From Synechococcus sp. CC9902 (GTDB lineage: Bacteria > Cyanobacteriota > Cyanobacteriia > PCC-6307 > Cyanobiaceae), in the NCBI RefSeq assembly GCF_000012505.1, contig NC_007513.1, forward strand, positions 1,178,001 to 1,242,000: a DNA stretch of 64,000 nt. The letters are read 5' to 3'. Shown here piece after piece: positions 39,826-47,405 of this stretch. The position numbers were made by a program, and so were the translations under genes. The notes beneath the pieces were generated by a model. That model saw nothing but the letters and a program-made list of their open reading frames with translations. It searched no databases and was not told the origin of the DNA. Numbering within the stretch: the stretch's first letter is position 1; each line of letters begins with the position of its first letter.

Positions 39826-41064
39826 TTGGACAACTGGACTTTGCCCAACGGCACCCGTTGCGTGGCGGCAGCGATGCCCGATGCACCGCTCACCTGCCTT
39901 GATTTTTGGTGCCAAGCCGGCAGCAGCAGTGAGCAGCCTGGTGAGGAAGGCATCGCACATTTTCTTGAACACATGGTGTTTAAGGGAAGTCATCGCTTAG
40001 CCGCTGGGGCATTCGATGAAGCCATCGAAGCGCTTGGAGGCAGCAGCAATGCAGCCACTGGATTCGACGACGTGCACTTTCACGTTTTGATCCCACCAGA
40101 TCGAGCAGCGGAGGCTTTGGATTTACTGCTCGAACTTGTGCTGCAACCGGCCCTCGACCCGCAGGGCTTTTCAACAGAAAGAGATGTGGTGCTCGAAGAG
40201 ATTGCCCAATATGCCGACCAACCCACTGAGCAAGTGCTGCAAAGCATCTTGAGTTTGGGTTGCGGAGACCATTCCTACGGCCGACCCATTCTCGGCAAGG
40301 TTGCAACGCTCAACGCCATGGAGCCCAGCCTGATGCGGCGGTTTCACCAACGGCGTTACCTCGGGCCAAATTGCACCCTGGCCCTGGCTGGCCCTGCCCC
40401 AGAAACGCTCAAACCAACCATCGCAGCATCGGCCTTGGCGGACCTTCCAGGAGATCGAAACGAGCCCAGCTCGCATCAACCCTTGCCACTGATGCTTCAC
40501 GCCGGCCGCCACACGCAACGGGTCGACCGTTTGGAATCGGCGCGAATTTTGATGCTTTGGACGACAGCGCCTGCCCACAACCAGGAGGCCGTTATGGGAG
40601 CAGATCTCGCGACAACACTGTTAGGTGAGGGAAGAAGAAGTCGTCTGGTGGAGCGTTTACGGGAGGAGCTTCAATTGGTTGAAAGTATCTCGATGGACCT
40701 CACAGCCTTGGAGGAGGGGAGCCTCATCACCCTGGAAGTGATCTGCCCAGAAGATGCATTATCCGCAGTTGAACAAGAGATCAATGCAGTGCTGCATCAA
40801 GTGGCAGACGAAGCCGTTTCAGAACAAGAGTTACGGCGTGGGTACCAGCTGGTGAGCAATAGCCTCCGCTACTCGTTGGAATCTGTCGGACATGTGACCG
40901 GTCTTTGTGCCAGCCACGTGCTTTGGCATCGCAACCAAGACTTGTTATCTCCCTTAAACCATCTGAACCATTGGAGTGCCGAACGACTGCAGACCGAACT
41001 ATTCCCTGCGCTTCTGCCTGAAAAGGCCTGTGTGTTGATTGCTCGCCCTGGAGCCAACCAGTGA
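39826..41064 (+). CDS. M16-family zinc metallopeptidase, catalytic subunit
   Basis: 412 residues from UUG at 39826 ([21 protein letters not shown]); a CUG at 39799 is an alternative. The inverted zinc motif HFLEH is at about residues 45-49 ([14 protein letters not shown]), and the third ligand glutamate follows in [11 protein letters not shown]. This is the active half of a processing-peptidase-like pair (compare bacterial PqqF/PqqL-type M16B). Location and substrate are unknown; no signal peptide. Its stop overlaps the next start. Confidence 0.88.
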
Positions 41065-42314
41065 GTTCAGCACTGGATGTTTTGGTCGAACCTCTCGCTT
41101 CACCGGGCGTGATGGCCGCAAAGCTTTGGCTGCCATTTGGCAGTGCTTGCGATGCCAGAGATCAGCGCGGTGCCCACGACCTATTGGCGTCGCTTCTGAG
41201 CCGGGGCTGCGGCCCCTACAACCCAAAGGAACTCGCCGATGTTGTCGAGGGATGTGGAGCAGGGCTGCGCTGCGATGCGCAAGAGGATGGGTTGTTACTG
41301 AGTCTTCGCAGCACCCTGGAGGATGCGGAGCAGCTTCTTCCTTTATTGGGGTGGATGGTCCTAGAACCGCATCTCGCACCGGACCAAGTCGCCCTCGAAA
41401 AAAACCTCACCCTGCAGATGTTGCAGCGGCAGCGGGAGGACCCATTCCACATGGCAGCCGTCGCATGGCGTGGACTCGCCTTTAACAACGGCGGCTACGG
41501 CCATGATCCGATGGGAGTGGAACAGGACCTCCAAAACATCGAGCGCCAGCAGATTCTGCCCCTGGCACAGCAACTCCCAAGCGGGCAAAGCGTTTTGAGC
41601 CTGGCGGGCTCCCTACCCGAAGACATCGAGCACCGCATTCGTGCCATGGATGGTTTCCGTGGCTGGCCACAAGCATCAGCTGAATGGAACGCTGGTCGTC
41701 TGAATTACGGAACGCCTGCAGGCGAAAGGATTCACCTTGAATCGATGGACACAGAACAGGTGGTTCTGATGCTTGGACAAGCAACGGTCCCCCACGGACA
41801 TCCCGATGATCTGGTGTTGCGCTTGCTCCAATGTCATCTCGGGGTTGGGATGTCGAGCCTTCTGTTTCGACGGCTTCGGGAGGAACACGGTGTTGCCTAT
41901 GAAGTTGCAGTGCACTATCCACAATTGATGGGACCAGCCCCATTTGTGCTTCTGGCTGCTACGGGGATGGAACGGGCAGAACTCAGCCTGCAACTCCTTC
42001 TTCAAAGCTGGGACGAGCTTTGCCAAACCACTCTGAGTCAAGCCGATCTAACCCTTGCCCGCGCCAAATTCATCGGTCAGATGGCCCAGGGACGGCAAAC
42101 CTGCTCTCAACGCGCTGAGCGGAGGGTTCAACTTCGCGCCATGGCACTGCGCGATGACCATGACCAGAGCTGTATGGAAGCCATTGCGTCGATCACGGTT
42201 GATCGCATCCAAGAGACCTGCCAACGCTGGTTCCAGAAACCTCAGCTCAGCCTCTGTGGTCCGCCTGAATCATTAGAGACTCTGGAGCGGGTTTGGGCTA
42301 ATCGACATCCATAA
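41061..42314 (+). CDS. M16-family peptidase-like protein, non-catalytic partner
   Basis: 417 residues, GUG start overlapping the preceding stop (GTGA). The same two-domain M16 fold is apparent (GAHDLLASLLSRGCG at the place of the zinc helix), but HxxEH is absent, while the C-terminal substrate-binding RLREEHGVAYEVAVHYP is kept. This is the standard active/inactive pair of M16B proteins, which form a heterodimer. The pairing is inferred from sequence and overlap. Confidence 0.87.
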   Translation: MSSALDVLVEPLASPGVMAAKLWLPFGSACDARDQRGAHDLLASLLSRGCGPYNPKELADVVEGCGAGLRCDAQEDGLLLSLRSTLEDAEQLLPLLGWMVLEPHLAPDQVALEKNLTLQMLQRQREDPFHMAAVAWRGLAFNNGGYGHDPMGVEQDLQNIERQQILPLAQQLPSGQSVLSLAGSLPEDIEHRIRAMDGFRGWPQASAEWNAGRLNYGTPAGERIHLESMDTEQVVLMLGQATVPHGHPDDLVLRLLQCHLGVGMSSLLFRRLREEHGVAYEVAVHYPQLMGPAPFVLLAATGMERAELSLQLLLQSWDELCQTTLSQADLTLARAKFIGQMAQGRQTCSQRAERRVQLRAMALRDDHDQSCMEAIASITVDRIQETCQRWFQKPQLSLCGPPESLETLERVWANRHP

Positions 42315-42651: not shown

Positions 42652-43230
42652 TTGTGGAACGTGAGGGCTCTCGCTACCTGGAGCGGTGCCCTAGCGGGGC
42701 TGATGGCCATTTTGATTGGCAGCCTTGTGCCTGCGGCACTGCTCCTACCAACTCCGCAGCTCGCGGTGGTTGATCTCCCCGCAACCTGGCAAGTCTCCGC
42801 ATTGTTGGTCTGCGCCATGGTCAGTGGCCCACGCGCTGGCGTCATTGCGGCGGTGGCCTACTTGAGCATGGGCTTCATCAACCTCCCGGTGTTCCACGGC
42901 GGTGGTGGGTTGAATTACCTGCTTGAGCCTGGCTTTGGATACTTGGCGGGCTTTGTTCCAGCAGCCTGGTTGACCGGCCGACTGGCGCATCAAACGGGAA
43001 TGCAGGACCTACCAAAGCAGTGCTTCGCTGCTGGAGCTGGTCTCTTGGTTTTGCAGTTGTGTGGCCTACTCAACCTCGGATTGGGTGCGCTATTCGGACG
43101 GTGGAGTTCACCGGTGTTGAGCCTGATCATGCAGTACTCGATTAACCCACTTCCGGCTCAAATTTTCCTTTGCATCGCATCGGGCTTACTCGCTGTGATT
43201 TTGCGTCGCCTACTAATCGTTGAATCATGA
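42652..43230 (+). CDS. bioY: Biotin transporter substrate-binding component BioY
   Basis: 192 residues, about six membrane helices; UUG start at 42652 or GUG at 42661. AYLSMGFINLPVFHGGGGLNYLLEPGFGYLAGFVPAAWLTG is the BioY signature (GLP.F..G..G...L..PT.GYL.G). It is the S-component of an ECF transporter; no bioM/bioN energy-coupling genes are nearby, so it either works alone or shares an ECF module encoded elsewhere. Its stop overlaps the lspA start (ATGA). Confidence 0.9.
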   Translation: MWNVRALATWSGALAGLMAILIGSLVPAALLLPTPQLAVVDLPATWQVSALLVCAMVSGPRAGVIAAVAYLSMGFINLPVFHGGGGLNYLLEPGFGYLAGFVPAAWLTGRLAHQTGMQDLPKQCFAAGAGLLVLQLCGLLNLGLGALFGRWSSPVLSLIMQYSINPLPAQIFLCIASGLLAVILRRLLIVES

Positions 43231-43703
43231 GCAGGGTGCTGCAACGATCCACAACCTTGTCGATTGCTGCAGCCATCGTGCTGATCGATCAGCTGAGTAA
43301 GGCCGGACTGTCGGAGATCTTGGTTGATGGAAGATCGATTCCCGCCATCCCAGGGATCCTCTCTCTGCAACTGGTTCACAACAGCGGCGCTGCCTTCAGC
43401 CTGTTCAGCGGATCCACAGAATTCCTAGGGCTGCTCAGCCTATTGGTGAGTTTGGGAATCTTGGTCTGGATTGGGCGACAGCGTGCGATACCTCTTTGGC
43501 AAGGCCTAGCGACGGCATGCCTGTTGGGCGGAACGCTTGGCAATGGCTTAGACCGCTGGCGCCTTGGCTACGTGGTGGACTTTCTCGCGCTCGTGCCGAT
43601 CAACTTCCCCATTTTCAACGGCGCCGATATCGCGATCAATCTTGCGGTGCTGTGCTTCGTTTTGGATCTCTGGCTCAACCGCCATGACGGGGAGCATGGT
43701 TAA
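43227..43703 (+). CDS. lspA: Lipoprotein signal peptidase (signal peptidase II)
   Basis: 158 residues, four membrane helices. Cleaves the signal peptide of lipid-modified prolipoproteins. The catalytic aspartates are in LGNGLDRWRLGYVVDF and FNGADIAIN, with the helix-1 motif IVLIDQLSKAG and HNSGAAFSLF. The start overlaps bioY by four bases, and the end overlaps the FHA-PBP start by eight bases. Confidence 0.95.
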   Translation: MSRVLQRSTTLSIAAAIVLIDQLSKAGLSEILVDGRSIPAIPGILSLQLVHNSGAAFSLFSGSTEFLGLLSLLVSLGILVWIGRQRAIPLWQGLATACLLGGTLGNGLDRWRLGYVVDFLALVPINFPIFNGADIAINLAVLCFVLDLWLNRHDGEHG

Positions 43704-45819
43704 TCCCACATTGCTGATTCAACAGCTGAATCAGCGCGAACGAAGCATCGAACTCCACGGCGAGAGTTACCGGCTGGGGCGCGACAAAAACGCTGACATC
43801 CCTCTCATTCATCCAGCGATCAGCAGGTTTCACGCACGATTGGTCCGTCGTGGTCGGCGCTGGTTACTGATCGACGAACAATCAACCAATGGCTTGTGGT
43901 GGCAGGGAAAACGGATTCAAGAACTTGAACTCCGCGACGGAGATCAGATCGCTCTGGCGCCAGCCTCAGAGCCCGATGCACCTCAACTGAACTTCAGATA
44001 TTCGTCGGATCGAAACCAGCAGAAATGGGCAAATCGGATTGGCCTGGTGATCGCCGCAGCGCTGACAGCGGGCTCAGGTCTACTAGTAGTTGCCAACCTC
44101 AGCGTGCCCGTGCGGGGTCGTTTGGCACGAGTACAAGGTCCAATCGCTCTTTACGACCGAAACGATTTGCCGATCAGTTCACTGGATTCCGAGCGGCACA
44201 ACGAGTTGCAACGCTTGGATGCCTTCTCCCCAAAACTGATCAGTGCCGTCATTGCCAGTGAGGACAGTCGTTTCTGGTGGCACCCTGGCATTGACGCGAT
44301 CGGAACCCTGCGCGCCCTGGTCACGAATGTGCAGGGACGGGAGGTGCTGGAGGGAGGCAGCAGTCTCACGCAGCAACTCGCTCGTAGCCTCTATCCCGAT
44401 CAAGTGGGACAAGGAGACACCCTGGAACGGAAATGGAGGGAGTTACTCGTTGCCCTTCAGCTGGAAACCCGGTTCAGCAAATCAGACCTGTTATTGAGCT
44501 ATCTCAATCGCGTTTATCTCGGCGTGGGCTATGGCTTTGAGGATGCTGCCCAGGCCTATTTCGACACCTCAGCTGCAACACTTCGCCTCGACCAAGCGGC
44601 ACTCCTGGTGGGTTTACTGCCGTCTCCCAATGGGCATGATCCATGCCGCCACCCCGCAAGGGCCCTACAAGCCCGCAATCTTGTTCTGAACAAAATGGCC
44701 GACCAAGGGAAAATTTCCCTCGACACGGCCCGTTTGACTCGACGTCGCCCGATACAACTCGCGCCAGAGGCCTGTAGCCGTCGTCATGCAGACGCAGCGC
44801 CGTTTTACAGCGACCAAGTTCAACGTGATCTCGCCGCATTGGTTGGTGCTGACGTTGCCGAAGAAGGAAATTTTTTAATCGAGACGTATTACGAGCCGCA
44901 CCTTCAAGCGGTCATGCAGCGACAGCTGCGTCGAGCTCTGCGGGTGAATAGAGGACGTGGGATTGACCAGGGTGCGGCTGTCTTGATCGACAGCCGCAGC
45001 GGTGGTGTTCTCGCGATCAGTGGTGGCCGCGACTTCCGAGCCAGTCAGTTCAATCGCGCCTCGATGGCACTCCGACAACCAGGAAGCACCTTCAAGCTTT
45101 TTGCTTACCTCGGTGCCCTCGAACAAAACATGCCTCCGAGTCAAGCCATTGACTGTGGGCCGTTGCGATGGGGAGGACAAGAGTTCGCGAGCGACTGTGC
45201 TGGACAACGCACCCTGATTCAAGCCTTTGCATTGAGCGACAACACAGTTGCCTTAAGGCTTGCGCAACGCATCGGCGTTGATCAGGTGGTTCGCCAAGCG
45301 CGTGCGCTCGGGATCACGACTCCCCTTTCCCCTGTTCCCGGACTCGCGTTGGGGCAAAGCGAGGTGCGCTTGATCGAACTCACCAGTGCCTATGCCGCCG
45401 TCGAAAATGGAGGCCTTTGGTACCCGCCAACCACCATTCGACGCCTCGTTGATGCCGAAACCTGTGCGTCCGAAACAACGGATCGTTGCCGCAGCCGCAG
45501 CACACCCGTCTCAACCCCACGGCAAGCCATTCGTCCTGCCACTGCGTTGAAGATGCAAGGAATGCTCCGTACCGTTGTTCGCAAGGGCACCGGCCAAGCC
45601 GCAGCCCTCGGTGGGCAAGAAGGCGGGAAAACGGGAACAACCAATGAAGGCCGTGATTTGTTGTTCATTGGCTATGAACCTGCCAATCACTGGGTTCTGG
45701 GAATTTGGTTGGGCAATGACGACAACAGCCCAACCACTGGATCAAGTGCCATTGCGGCTGGTTTATGGGCTGACATGATCCGAGCCGCTAGAAGCGGTGG
45801 ACACCAAGCCAAACCATGA
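43696..45819 (+). CDS. FHA-domain class A penicillin-binding protein (glycosyltransferase/transpeptidase)
   Basis: 707 residues from ATG at 43696. Residues about 1-100 form a cytoplasmic forkhead-associated domain with its phosphothreonine-binding set: YRLGRDK (28-30), S43/H46 in SRFHARL, and STNG (63-66). A membrane helix follows (IGLVIAAALTAGSGLLVVA). Then come a GT51 glycosyltransferase (ASEDSRFWWHPGIDAIGTLRA; EGGSSLTQQLARSL) and a transpeptidase with STFK, SDN and KTGT motifs. It should polymerise and crosslink peptidoglycan, with the FHA suggesting control by protein phosphorylation. Coupled to lspA upstream and to a GTPase downstream by overlapping starts. Confidence 0.92.
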   Translation: MVNPTLLIQQLNQRERSIELHGESYRLGRDKNADIPLIHPAISRFHARLVRRGRRWLLIDEQSTNGLWWQGKRIQELELRDGDQIALAPASEPDAPQLNFRYSSDRNQQKWANRIGLVIAAALTAGSGLLVVANLSVPVRGRLARVQGPIALYDRNDLPISSLDSERHNELQRLDAFSPKLISAVIASEDSRFWWHPGIDAIGTLRALVTNVQGREVLEGGSSLTQQLARSLYPDQVGQGDTLERKWRELLVALQLETRFSKSDLLLSYLNRVYLGVGYGFEDAAQAYFDTSAATLRLDQAALLVGLLPSPNGHDPCRHPARALQARNLVLNKMADQGKISLDTARLTRRRPIQLAPEACSRRHADAAPFYSDQVQRDLAALVGADVAEEGNFLIETYYEPHLQAVMQRQLRRALRVNRGRGIDQGAAVLIDSRSGGVLAISGGRDFRASQFNRASMALRQPGSTFKLFAYLGALEQNMPPSQAIDCGPLRWGGQEFASDCAGQRTLIQAFALSDNTVALRLAQRIGVDQVVRQARALGITTPLSPVPGLALGQSEVRLIELTSAYAAVENGGLWYPPTTIRRLVDAETCASETTDRCRSRSTPVSTPRQAIRPATALKMQGMLRTVVRKGTGQAAALGGQEGGKTGTTNEGRDLLFIGYEPANHWVLGIWLGNDDNSPTTGSSAIAAGLWADMIRAARSGGHQAKP

Positions 45820-47405
45820 AAGGTCGCACACGGCTTCTGCTGGGACTCGCCTGCGCCCTCCTGGCCCTGGTGGTCGTGGGAGTCGTCTTACAGGCCGTCC
45901 GAACCCTGCTGTGGGATCTCAGTTATTTCCTACCCCCTTGGCTTCTTACGCCAATCTTGCTGCTGGGACTCACTCTCTTGGCGACCGCCGTTGTCCAGGT
46001 CGGGCTGCCTTGGTGGAGGAAACAACAAGCAACGGCACGACGCCGCCCCACGCAACCTTTGCAGGCGCCAACCAATCGTCGCGATGCCGCTGACCAAAGC
46101 CTGAGCAATATCGACCGTTTAATCGAAAGACTTGAAAGTGACATCGCCCGCGAAAGCCTTCAGGCTGAACGGGATCGGGTGAACGAGGAACTGCAACGTG
46201 GGGACCTGGTGGTCGTCGTCTTCGGCACCGGCTCCAGCGGCAAAACATCGCTAATTAGAGCCCTCCTGCAAAAAATGGTGGGAGACGTGGGTGCTCCGAT
46301 GGGGCTCACCAAGGAAACGCGCAGTTACAGGTTGCGCCTCAAAGGGTTGAATCGGGGTCTACAACTCGTGGATACCCCGGGGATTCTTGAAGCAGGCGAC
46401 GACGGTCTGAGTCGAGAAGATCAAGCACGACGTCGCGCCATTCGAGCCGACTTGCTCTTGGTGGTGGTGGATGGCGATCTCCGAGCGTCGGAACTGGCTG
46501 TGGTGCGCTCAATTGCTGATCTTGGAAAACGACTCCTCCTTGTTCTCAACAAACGCGATTTACGCGGCGTGGATGAAGAGAAACAGCTGCTGCAGGTGTT
46601 GCGATCCCGCTGCACAGGGCTGTTGTCGAACGCAGATGTTTTGGCGTGTAGTGCCGCCCCTCAATCCATTCCACAACCGGGTCGGCGACCACTACAACCC
46701 AAGCCCGACGTCATGGACCTGATGCAGCGATTGGCGGTTGTGTTGCAGGCCGAGGGGGAAGAACTCATTGCAGACAACATTCTTCTCCAGTGCCGCAACC
46801 TTGATTCCCGCGGTCGAGATCTATTGAACCAACAACGCATCCGCGATGCGAAGCGTTGCGTCGACCGCTACTGCTGGATCGGAGCCGGGGTCGTAGCGGC
46901 CACTCCACTGCCGGGTATCGACCTCCTCAGTACAGCTGCGGTCAATGCCCAAATGGTGGTGGAAATGGCGGGCATCTACGGCATTGAAATGTCGAAAGAA
47001 CGAGCCAAGGAACTCGCCGTTTCGGTGGGACGCACCCTGGCAACCCTTGGCATGGTGAAAGGTGCCATGAGCTTGCTGGGCACAGCGCTCACCCTGAATT
47101 TGCCGACCCTATTGGTGGGTCGTGCGATCCAGGGAGTTACTGCGGCATGGCTCACCCGAGTCGCGGGTAGCAGCTTCATTCGGTTTTTTGAACAAGACCA
47201 AGATTGGGGAGATGGCGGCATGCAAGACGCCGTCCAAGAAGCGTTTCAGCTCAATCGGCGGGAAACGTCTTTGCAGCGCTTTTTAGAAACCGCGATGCGT
47301 CAGGTGGTGGAGCCACTTCAGCGATCGGCGAAGCGACAACTACCGCCCCGGCCAGGGCCTCGGGAGGAGGGGGGAGCAGCGGACCGCGGGCATCAAGAGC
47401 AGTGA
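45816..47405 (+). CDS. Membrane-bound DUF697 GTPase
   Basis: 529 residues. Two N-terminal membrane helices (LLLGLACALLALVVVGVVLQ; LLTPILLLGLTLLATAVV), then a coiled, charged linker, then an Era-like GTPase: G1 GTGSSGKTSL, G3 DTPG, G4 NKRD. The C-terminal part (GAGVVAATPLPGIDLLSTAAVNAQMVVEMAGIYGIE) is DUF697, a membrane-associating domain. Cyanobacteria carry several such proteins, with no settled function. ATG overlaps the PBP stop by four bases, so it belongs to the bioY-lspA-PBP unit. Its last 155 bases overlap a convergent small gene. Confidence 0.87.
   Translation: MKGRTRLLLGLACALLALVVVGVVLQAVRTLLWDLSYFLPPWLLTPILLLGLTLLATAVVQVGLPWWRKQQATARRRPTQPLQAPTNRRDAADQSLSNIDRLIERLESDIARESLQAERDRVNEELQRGDLVVVVFGTGSSGKTSLIRALLQKMVGDVGAPMGLTKETRSYRLRLKGLNRGLQLVDTPGILEAGDDGLSREDQARRRAIRADLLLVVVDGDLRASELAVVRSIADLGKRLLLVLNKRDLRGVDEEKQLLQVLRSRCTGLLSNADVLACSAAPQSIPQPGRRPLQPKPDVMDLMQRLAVVLQAEGEELIADNILLQCRNLDSRGRDLLNQQRIRDAKRCVDRYCWIGAGVVAATPLPGIDLLSTAAVNAQMVVEMAGIYGIEMSKERAKELAVSVGRTLATLGMVKGAMSLLGTALTLNLPTLLVGRAIQGVTAAWLTRVAGSSFIRFFEQDQDWGDGGMQDAVQEAFQLNRRETSLQRFLETAMRQVVEPLQRSAKRQLPPRPGPREEGGAADRGHQEQ

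Follow-up and report, generated by a model that had tools for sequence, protein, structure and literature searches.

A class A penicillin-binding protein with a fused FHA domain and its candidate partner kinase in Synechococcus sp. CC9902 and related cyanobacteria

Introduction

Kinase steering of peptidoglycan synthesis is known mostly from actinobacteria and firmicutes, often via separate adaptor proteins. The present study concerns a gene for a class A penicillin-binding protein (PBP) with an N-terminal FHA domain, here named FHA-PBP1, in a 64,000-nucleotide stretch of the cyanobacterium Synechococcus sp. CC9902 (NC_007513.1, positions 1,178,001 to 1,242,000 of the forward strand; the whole stretch is called the window), and a transmembrane Hanks-type kinase of the same genome, kinase A. 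The mycobacterial PknB/FhaA/CwlM/MurJ system, as described in the available passages of its report (PMC6180346), shares with this putative pair a membrane serine/threonine (Ser/Thr) kinase with an extracytoplasmic part, an FHA reader and a wall-synthesis target.

Marine picocyanobacterial Ser/Thr kinases (STKs), such as sync_0122 and Syncc9605_0116, are reported in passages of PMC2176072 to occur once per genome and to deviate from canonical motifs. Those passages tie them neither to a PBP nor to catalytic decay, and 'penicillin' is absent from the main text of that paper. These kinases probably belong to the same group as kinase A, presumably as orthologues. A PBP fused to an FHA domain was not found in the parts of the literature searched, which cover subscription journals thinly.

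An earlier note on this DNA proposed a wall-synthesis control module made of a kinase signal, the FHA-containing PBP and the adjacent DUF697 GTPase. Here we describe the architecture of FHA-PBP1, the invariance of its FHA and PBP site residues, and the repeated paired loss of FHA-PBP1 and the catalytic core of kinase A in the family Cyanobiaceae.

Results

FHA-PBP1 is a class A PBP with a complete FHA domain

FHA-PBP1 has the domain order FHA, membrane helix, GT51 and transpeptidase (Table 1). The FHA domain scored 67.8 bits in the Pfam search of the genome (cut-off 20.7) and 64.9 bits in a second Pfam search, and Transgly (172 bits) and Transpeptidase (105 bits) matched in the same frame. The longest mechanical frame opens at TTG 43564, deep within lspA; the start ATG 43696 fits the FHA domain and the operon and gives 707 aa. 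RLGRD, SRFH and STNG stand at residues 26, 43 and 63. The FHA fold and the G-R, S-x-x-H and N-G residues, which we take to be the usual phosphothreonine site of FHA domains, are both present, and phosphothreonine binding is predicted. With GT51 and transpeptidase in one chain and the catalytic residues kept, the sequence points to a class A PBP, though its score against TIGR02074 (PBP1A family) was 442 bits, under the cut-off of 509.

The AlphaFold model places a beta-strand domain at residues 1-101 (block pLDDT, predicted local distance difference test, 79-88) ahead of the helix; the FHA part alone was used, the whole model being of low confidence (pLDDT 65.7; predicted template modelling score, pTM, 0.38). 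The helix would divide a cytoplasmic FHA domain from periplasmic catalytic domains. With the whole model as the Foldseek query, the best 50 matches were all PBPs, PBP1b at the top, with no separate match for the FHA fold. Compared with solved structures, the FHA domain matched that of Mycobacterium Rv1747 best, followed by Synechocystis Slr1951 and FhaA (TB39.8), with EmbR lower. Named relatives with 54-63% identical proteins belong to Synechococcus, Cyanobium and Vulcanococcus. The window genome (2.23 Mb, single contig) contains one FHA domain in the Pfam search.

Pfam, the motifs and the model thus agree with the earlier description of the gene as a class A PBP with a complete FHA domain ahead of its membrane helix. 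The gene does overlap lspA by 8 nt and the GTPase gene by 4 nt (ATGA). The earlier note gave the span as 43227-47405, but 43227 is the start of lspA and not of the PBP gene.

Site residues are invariant where FHA-PBP1 is kept

When 146 genomes of the phylum were searched at the protein level, full-length matches including the FHA domain came from 58/58 genomes of other families in the same class and from 2/6 of the same family. In other classes, none of the matches listed begins before residue 90 of FHA-PBP1. The distribution is patchy within the family (151 genomes searched) and within the genus, where 5/34 genomes carry the gene. FHA residues G28, R29, S43, H46, N65 and G66 and the PBP active-site residues were invariant in 70/70 distinct family sequences, in 30/30 class-level sequences (a set of 30 of the 58 genomes) and in 19/19 sequences of a paralogue, FHA-PBP2. 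The lack of conservation in orthologues that the earlier note had named as damaging to its reading was therefore not seen.

Kinase A combines a kept catalytic triad with an atypical N-lobe

Kinase A is the sole Pkinase match above the Pfam cut-off in the window genome (45-47 bits versus 31.7). An AarF-like gene (L003) was rejected as the kinase, at 21.5 bits below the cut-off and resembling ABC1/UbiB by eye. The N-terminal part of kinase A is a Hanks-like domain; the protein also has a single hydrophobic stretch (approximately residues 317-339, judged by eye) and, at its C-terminus, a conserved domain that probably lies outside the membrane. Among solved structures, its best match was PknI, which we take to be a Mycobacterium protein, and the C-terminal domain was unmatched among the best 60 matches. 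Pfam recognised no PASTA domain in kinase A, and no Pfam family matched the C-terminal domain in the full-length protein.

The residues D137, N142 and D156 were present in 38/38 kinases from genomes with FHA-PBP1, a set that omits the partial copy of G161, whose core is intact in the core alignment. T172 in the activation segment was kept in 36/38 of these kinases and missing in 16/19 decayed copies. The C-terminal part is conserved in most decayed copies. Nothing else of the gene was found in G168, G306, G238 and G279, and loci L373, L374, L349 and L351 hold this part alone in frames of 317-393 aa. Because it is found alone in those genomes, the C-terminal domain may have a role of its own. 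The gene adjoining kinase A (L002:118-1269, minus strand) resembles, by eye, an EgtB-type (ergothioneine) protein.

The kinase A core tracks FHA-PBP1

A Pkinase search (E<=1e-8) covered 80 family genomes hand-picked from a longer list, 79 of them at least 98% complete and one 95%. Matches were found in 46/80 genomes, namely 39/39 with FHA-PBP1 and 7/41 without an intact copy, a split that needs no reading of motifs. The seven comprise G229, G290, G211 with a decayed kinase A, and G141, G154, G232 and G255, which contain another kinase, kinase B. With kinase A itself as the query, the gene was often found to persist after the loss of FHA-PBP1 with its core ruined. Copies with a readable core in the main clade of the window genus showed N142H, DFG changed to DGG or EGG, and a deleted activation segment; the Asn was lost in group g6 (G141, G211), and the Asn and DFG in group g85 (G154, G232, G255). 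Others held fragments of kinase A or nothing. In the first set with G274 added, the core (HxD Asp137, Asn142 and DFG Asp156) was intact in 40/40 genomes with FHA-PBP1 and in 2/41 without an intact copy (G229 and G290), being lost or the gene absent in 39/41; none of the 81 genomes had FHA-PBP1 without the core.

A second set of 55 genomes, many of them incomplete, shares G274 with the first. Among 29 of these with FHA-PBP1 sequence, the core was intact in 25, the catalytic loop was not visible on the fetched stretches in three (G227, G265, G251) and one (G284) had no match; among 26 without FHA-PBP1 sequence, the core was intact in one (G296). Class-wide, 62/65 genomes match kinase A, most having many kinases. 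This comparison is without power outside the family because 0/58 sampled class genomes of other families are without an FHA-PBP and most have many kinases.

Loss of FHA-PBP1 and of the core is correlated on the tree

A FastTree phylogeny of GTPase, lspA and bioY was used for 81 genomes (the 80 plus G274); two outgroups and G310, G297 and G147 (less than 90% complete) were in the tree and outside the test. Eight losses of FHA-PBP1 and six of the kinase core were inferred, all six clades of core loss being among the eight that lost FHA-PBP1. A loss-only Pagel model favoured dependence, with a likelihood ratio (LR) of 30.6 (p=2e-7), or 33.7 if G290 is scored as having FHA-PBP1, 31.7 on a GTPase-only tree and 28.5 without an 18-genome streamlined clade. 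The fitted rate of core loss was approximately 0 with FHA-PBP1 present and approximately 18 after its loss. In the negative control, FHA-PBP2 against kinase A, the LR was 2.3 (p=0.32), and FHA-PBP2 against FHA-PBP1 gave 2.0 (p=0.37). A general rule linking FHA-PBPs to kinase A was dropped, and the tie of kinase A is specific to FHA-PBP1, because FHA-PBP2 does not track kinase A.

The sequences indicate that FHA-PBP1 has been lost repeatedly, leaving remnants, which were found in G229, G310 and G314. An lspA-GTPase gap of approximately 120 nt in G229, whose GTPase is 96-97% identical to that of the window, still contains degenerate sequence that corresponds to the 31 C-terminal residues of FHA-PBP1; in G290 the protein is in two pieces. 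G310 (L201:2013-2222) has an in-frame remnant in which the first approximately 33 residues are joined to the last 36, the two parts meeting at a short similar stretch. A stop-ridden remnant lies just upstream of the GTPase gene in G314 (L375:286-1663), its two matching pieces weak (E 5e-4 and 0.003) yet correct in place and order. FHA-PBP1 is best explained as an additional class A peptidoglycan synthase that can be dispensed with.

The DUF697 GTPase is a conserved neighbour

The order bioY, lspA, FHA-PBP1 (where present) and GTPase is kept in the family loci read. PBP and GTPase genes were both found in 65/66 family loci, which include some genomes twice, always on the same strand and an estimated -7 to +32 nt apart; the remaining locus, L054, ends before the GTPase gene. 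The entire bioY-lspA-FHA-PBP-GTPase locus is also present in L082, from a metagenome-assembled genome titled Prochlorococcus marinus str. MIT 9215 (bin.404), a title that is possibly misassigned. A DUF697 gene was found in 64/64 genomes searched. Among 30 genomes chosen for the absence of an intact FHA-PBP1 of this type, lspA lies directly upstream of the GTPase gene with no PBP between in 29; FHA-PBP1 sequence is present between the two in the thirtieth, G290. The lspA-GTPase gaps in genomes without FHA-PBP1 are mostly small, with approximately 570 nt in G211.

Outside the family, PBP and GTPase genes lie at most 5 kb apart, by eye, in 2/58 class genomes (G027 and G008, from two further families). 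In 18 longer class loci, lspA was near the PBP in eight and the GTPase in two, with the window lspA as the query, which can miss divergent copies, and with a weak 26% GTPase match approximately 9 kb away in L220 left out; lspA looks like the older neighbour because of this 8/18 versus 2/18. A PBP-GTPase module was rejected on synteny, the GTPase staying beside lspA without the PBP (29/29) and DUF697 being universal in the genomes searched. Within the family, the tight junction is best read as synteny in the operon with a neighbour that is conserved in general.

The GTPase scored 186 bits for DUF697 and 56 bits for MMR_HSR1, both above cut-offs, and 259 bits for NF049994 (slr1306 family, NCBIfam; cut-off 490). 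Its model (pLDDT 69, pTM 0.53) weakly matched bacterial dynamins, GIMAP/IRG GTPases and Era in Foldseek. Two consecutive genes, judged by eye to be M16-like peptidases, lie upstream in the window (39826-42314), and the pair precedes bioY-lspA in the longer family loci that reach that far.

Table 1. Features of the FHA-PBP1 locus (window coordinates) and kinase A
Feature	Position	Strand	Remarks
bioY-like transporter	42652..43230	+	Upstream of lspA
lspA, signal peptidase II	43227..43703	+	Upstream neighbour of FHA-PBP1; near PBP in some other families too
FHA-PBP1, class A PBP with N-terminal FHA domain, 707 aa	43696..45819	+	Pfam domains, orthologues
FHA domain (Pfam PF00498), residues 25-87	43768..43956	+	Invariant G28, R29, S43, H46, N65, G66
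Membrane helix, residues 106-136 in AlphaFold model	44011..44103	+	Hydrophobic stretch also in sequence
GT51 transglycosylase domain	44170..44697	+	Invariant E189, E249
Transpeptidase domain	44971..45744	+	Invariant S464xxK467, S514xN516, K645TG
Membrane GTPase with DUF697 (slr1306-like)	45816..47405	+	Operon neighbour, judged not a dedicated partner
Kinase A, transmembrane Hanks-type kinase	G000:C1:165513-167438		Outside window; unlinked to FHA-PBP1

FHA-PBP2 lies in a kinase/PP2C/VWA cluster

FHA-PBP2 is 38-42% identical to FHA-PBP1 of the window. Genes for a kinase, a VWA protein and a PP2C adjoin it in 19/19 loci (L221-L239; e.g. L221:1060-9669). Of these loci, 15 had been picked for a nearby kinase and four had not (G274, G272, G288, G282), and all four have the cluster. 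A divergent FHA-membrane protein is encoded in 16 loci, 15 of them identified by matching and the sixteenth, L221, having supplied the queries; in 17 loci, a rhomboid-like gene lies downstream of the PBP gene. The VWA match is weak (PF00092, 25.8 bits versus 23.8), the PP2C is PP2C_2, and the kinase has a CxxC..CxxC stretch of zinc-ribbon-like Cys pairs. The TerY-P triad, made of adjoining genes for vWA, PP2C and a kinase with a zinc ribbon, is no more than a lead here; adjoining genes of these three kinds are present in 19/19 loci. The cluster shares VWA, PP2C_2 and the kinase with Cys pairs with that triad and has in addition FHA-PBP2, the FHA-membrane protein and the rhomboid-like gene. NCBIfam gave no TerY-type name for the cluster proteins, and the literature search turned up no paper on the triad. 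At a twentieth locus, that of G141 (described below), which was chosen for its kinase, a short FHA-like match was seen (297-73).

Discussion

The best reading of these results, and one to which we give slightly better than even credence, is that kinase A and FHA-PBP1 form a dedicated pair. The extracytoplasmic domain of kinase A would sense the state of the envelope, and kinase A would phosphorylate a threonine, possibly T172 in its own activation segment. The FHA domain of FHA-PBP1 may then dock on the phosphothreonine and place or switch the PBP, and the DUF697 GTPase would stay outside this switch as an operon neighbour. The kinase signal to the PBP in the earlier note finds support in the integrity of the core, which tracks FHA-PBP1 over repeated losses while the control pair is flat; phosphorylation, docking, the direction of control, the identity of the phosphosite and the topology are inferred.

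A wider claim, for which the chances fall a little short of even, is that a one-to-one kinase/FHA-synthase pair could be all the Hanks/FHA signalling of the genome, and that loss of the synthase would free the kinase domain to decay or vanish, the outer domain often persisting for another task. Cyanobacteria would also have wired FHA-PBPs to kinases two or more times, in trans through kinase A and within the kinase/PP2C/VWA cluster of FHA-PBP2.

Several observations weigh against a dedicated pair. The kinase A and FHA-PBP1 genes are not linked, and FHA domains were counted solely in the window genome. The core criterion, the textbook triad, was set after the alignment had been seen. FHA-PBP1 is present with no kinase match in G284 (73% complete; FHA-PBP1 frame with one TGA), kinase A is present and FHA-PBP1 was not found in G296 (58% complete), and G141 (L240:73-8492) has kinase, VWA and PP2C genes with no FHA-PBP2 in a 12-kb locus. 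A genome-level correlation between FHA domains and Ser/Thr kinases in bacteria is already known (passages of PMC2176072). Furthermore, the VAIK Lys position is Arg44 in 38/38 kinases from genomes with FHA-PBP1, and no position in residues 1-125 has Lys in more than five of the 38.

As the VAIK Lys is absent, kinase A is not claimed as an active kinase, and it may be a pseudokinase throughout, the FHA domain or another part of FHA-PBP1 binding its nucleotide-loaded kinase fold as a scaffold and any phosphate coming from elsewhere. According to the passages available, Synechocystis SpkE, which is reported to be closely related to the marine kinases, is without kinase activity (PMC2176072, PMC3102658), and in mycobacteria FhaA forms a complex with the pseudokinase domain of MurJ once this has been phosphorylated by PknB (PMC6180346). 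However, Asp137, which a pure scaffold could dispense with, is invariant in 38/38 together with Asn142 and Asp156. SpkE is no fair stand-in for kinase A because it is itself without the catalytic Asp (PMC2176072, in the same passages). We consider the scaffold explanation unlikely, though it is the strongest competitor of a dedicated pair.

The co-loss could also reflect a common ecology, streamlining of the genomes or an unseen third component, with no direct functional contact between the two proteins. Many of the losses are in small genomes, and the comparison was made with a single control gene and no genome-wide background. However, the LR remains 28.5 without the streamlined clade and the control pair is flat. 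Genus genomes of 2.5-2.6 Mb (G291, G295, G201) have lost FHA-PBP1 and the kinase core, whereas the 2.23-Mb window genome keeps both. In addition, the kinase gene often survives with a conserved C-terminal domain and the core gone or ruined. Indirect co-loss of this kind therefore seems to us improbable, slightly more so than the scaffold.

A full module of kinase signal, PBP and DUF697 GTPase acting together, as the earlier note proposed, is very improbable despite the tight junction, on one strand, in all 65 family loci that contain the two genes and the proximity in G027 and G008, given DUF697 in 64/64 genomes, the GTPase beside lspA in 29/29 genomes without FHA-PBP1, and 56/58 class genomes with no GTPase gene within 5 kb of the PBP (by eye).

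The link between kinase A and FHA-PBP1 is testable, since reader and synthase form one protein, a single gene encodes the presumed kinase, and natural losses of either or both occur among close relatives. A candidate function is gained for the single-copy STK genes of marine strains, and kinase domains are seen decaying after the loss of a putative client. The known correlation of FHA domains and kinases shares co-occurrence with the present result; here, one orthologous FHA protein is set against the catalytic residues of one orthologous kinase and tested on a tree. The gene-level tie of FHA-PBP1 and kinase A, and the decay of the catalytic core, are new here.

Class A PBPs of the PBP1A family (TIGR02074) and those known from E. 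coli PBP1b structures share GT51, transpeptidase and conserved catalytic residues with FHA-PBP1, which scores under the TIGR02074 cut-off and adds an N-terminal FHA domain. Judged by sequence, parts like those of PknB and FhaA are present and co-conserved in genomes with FHA-PBP1. Compared with PknB/FhaA/CwlM/MurJ, the kinase is unlinked and atypical (VAIK Lys to Arg) with no PASTA domain recognised by Pfam, and the FHA domain is fused to the synthase, making reader and effector one chain. FHA-PBP1 would thus exemplify control of wall synthesis by a kinase and an FHA domain in which the synthase carries its own reader.

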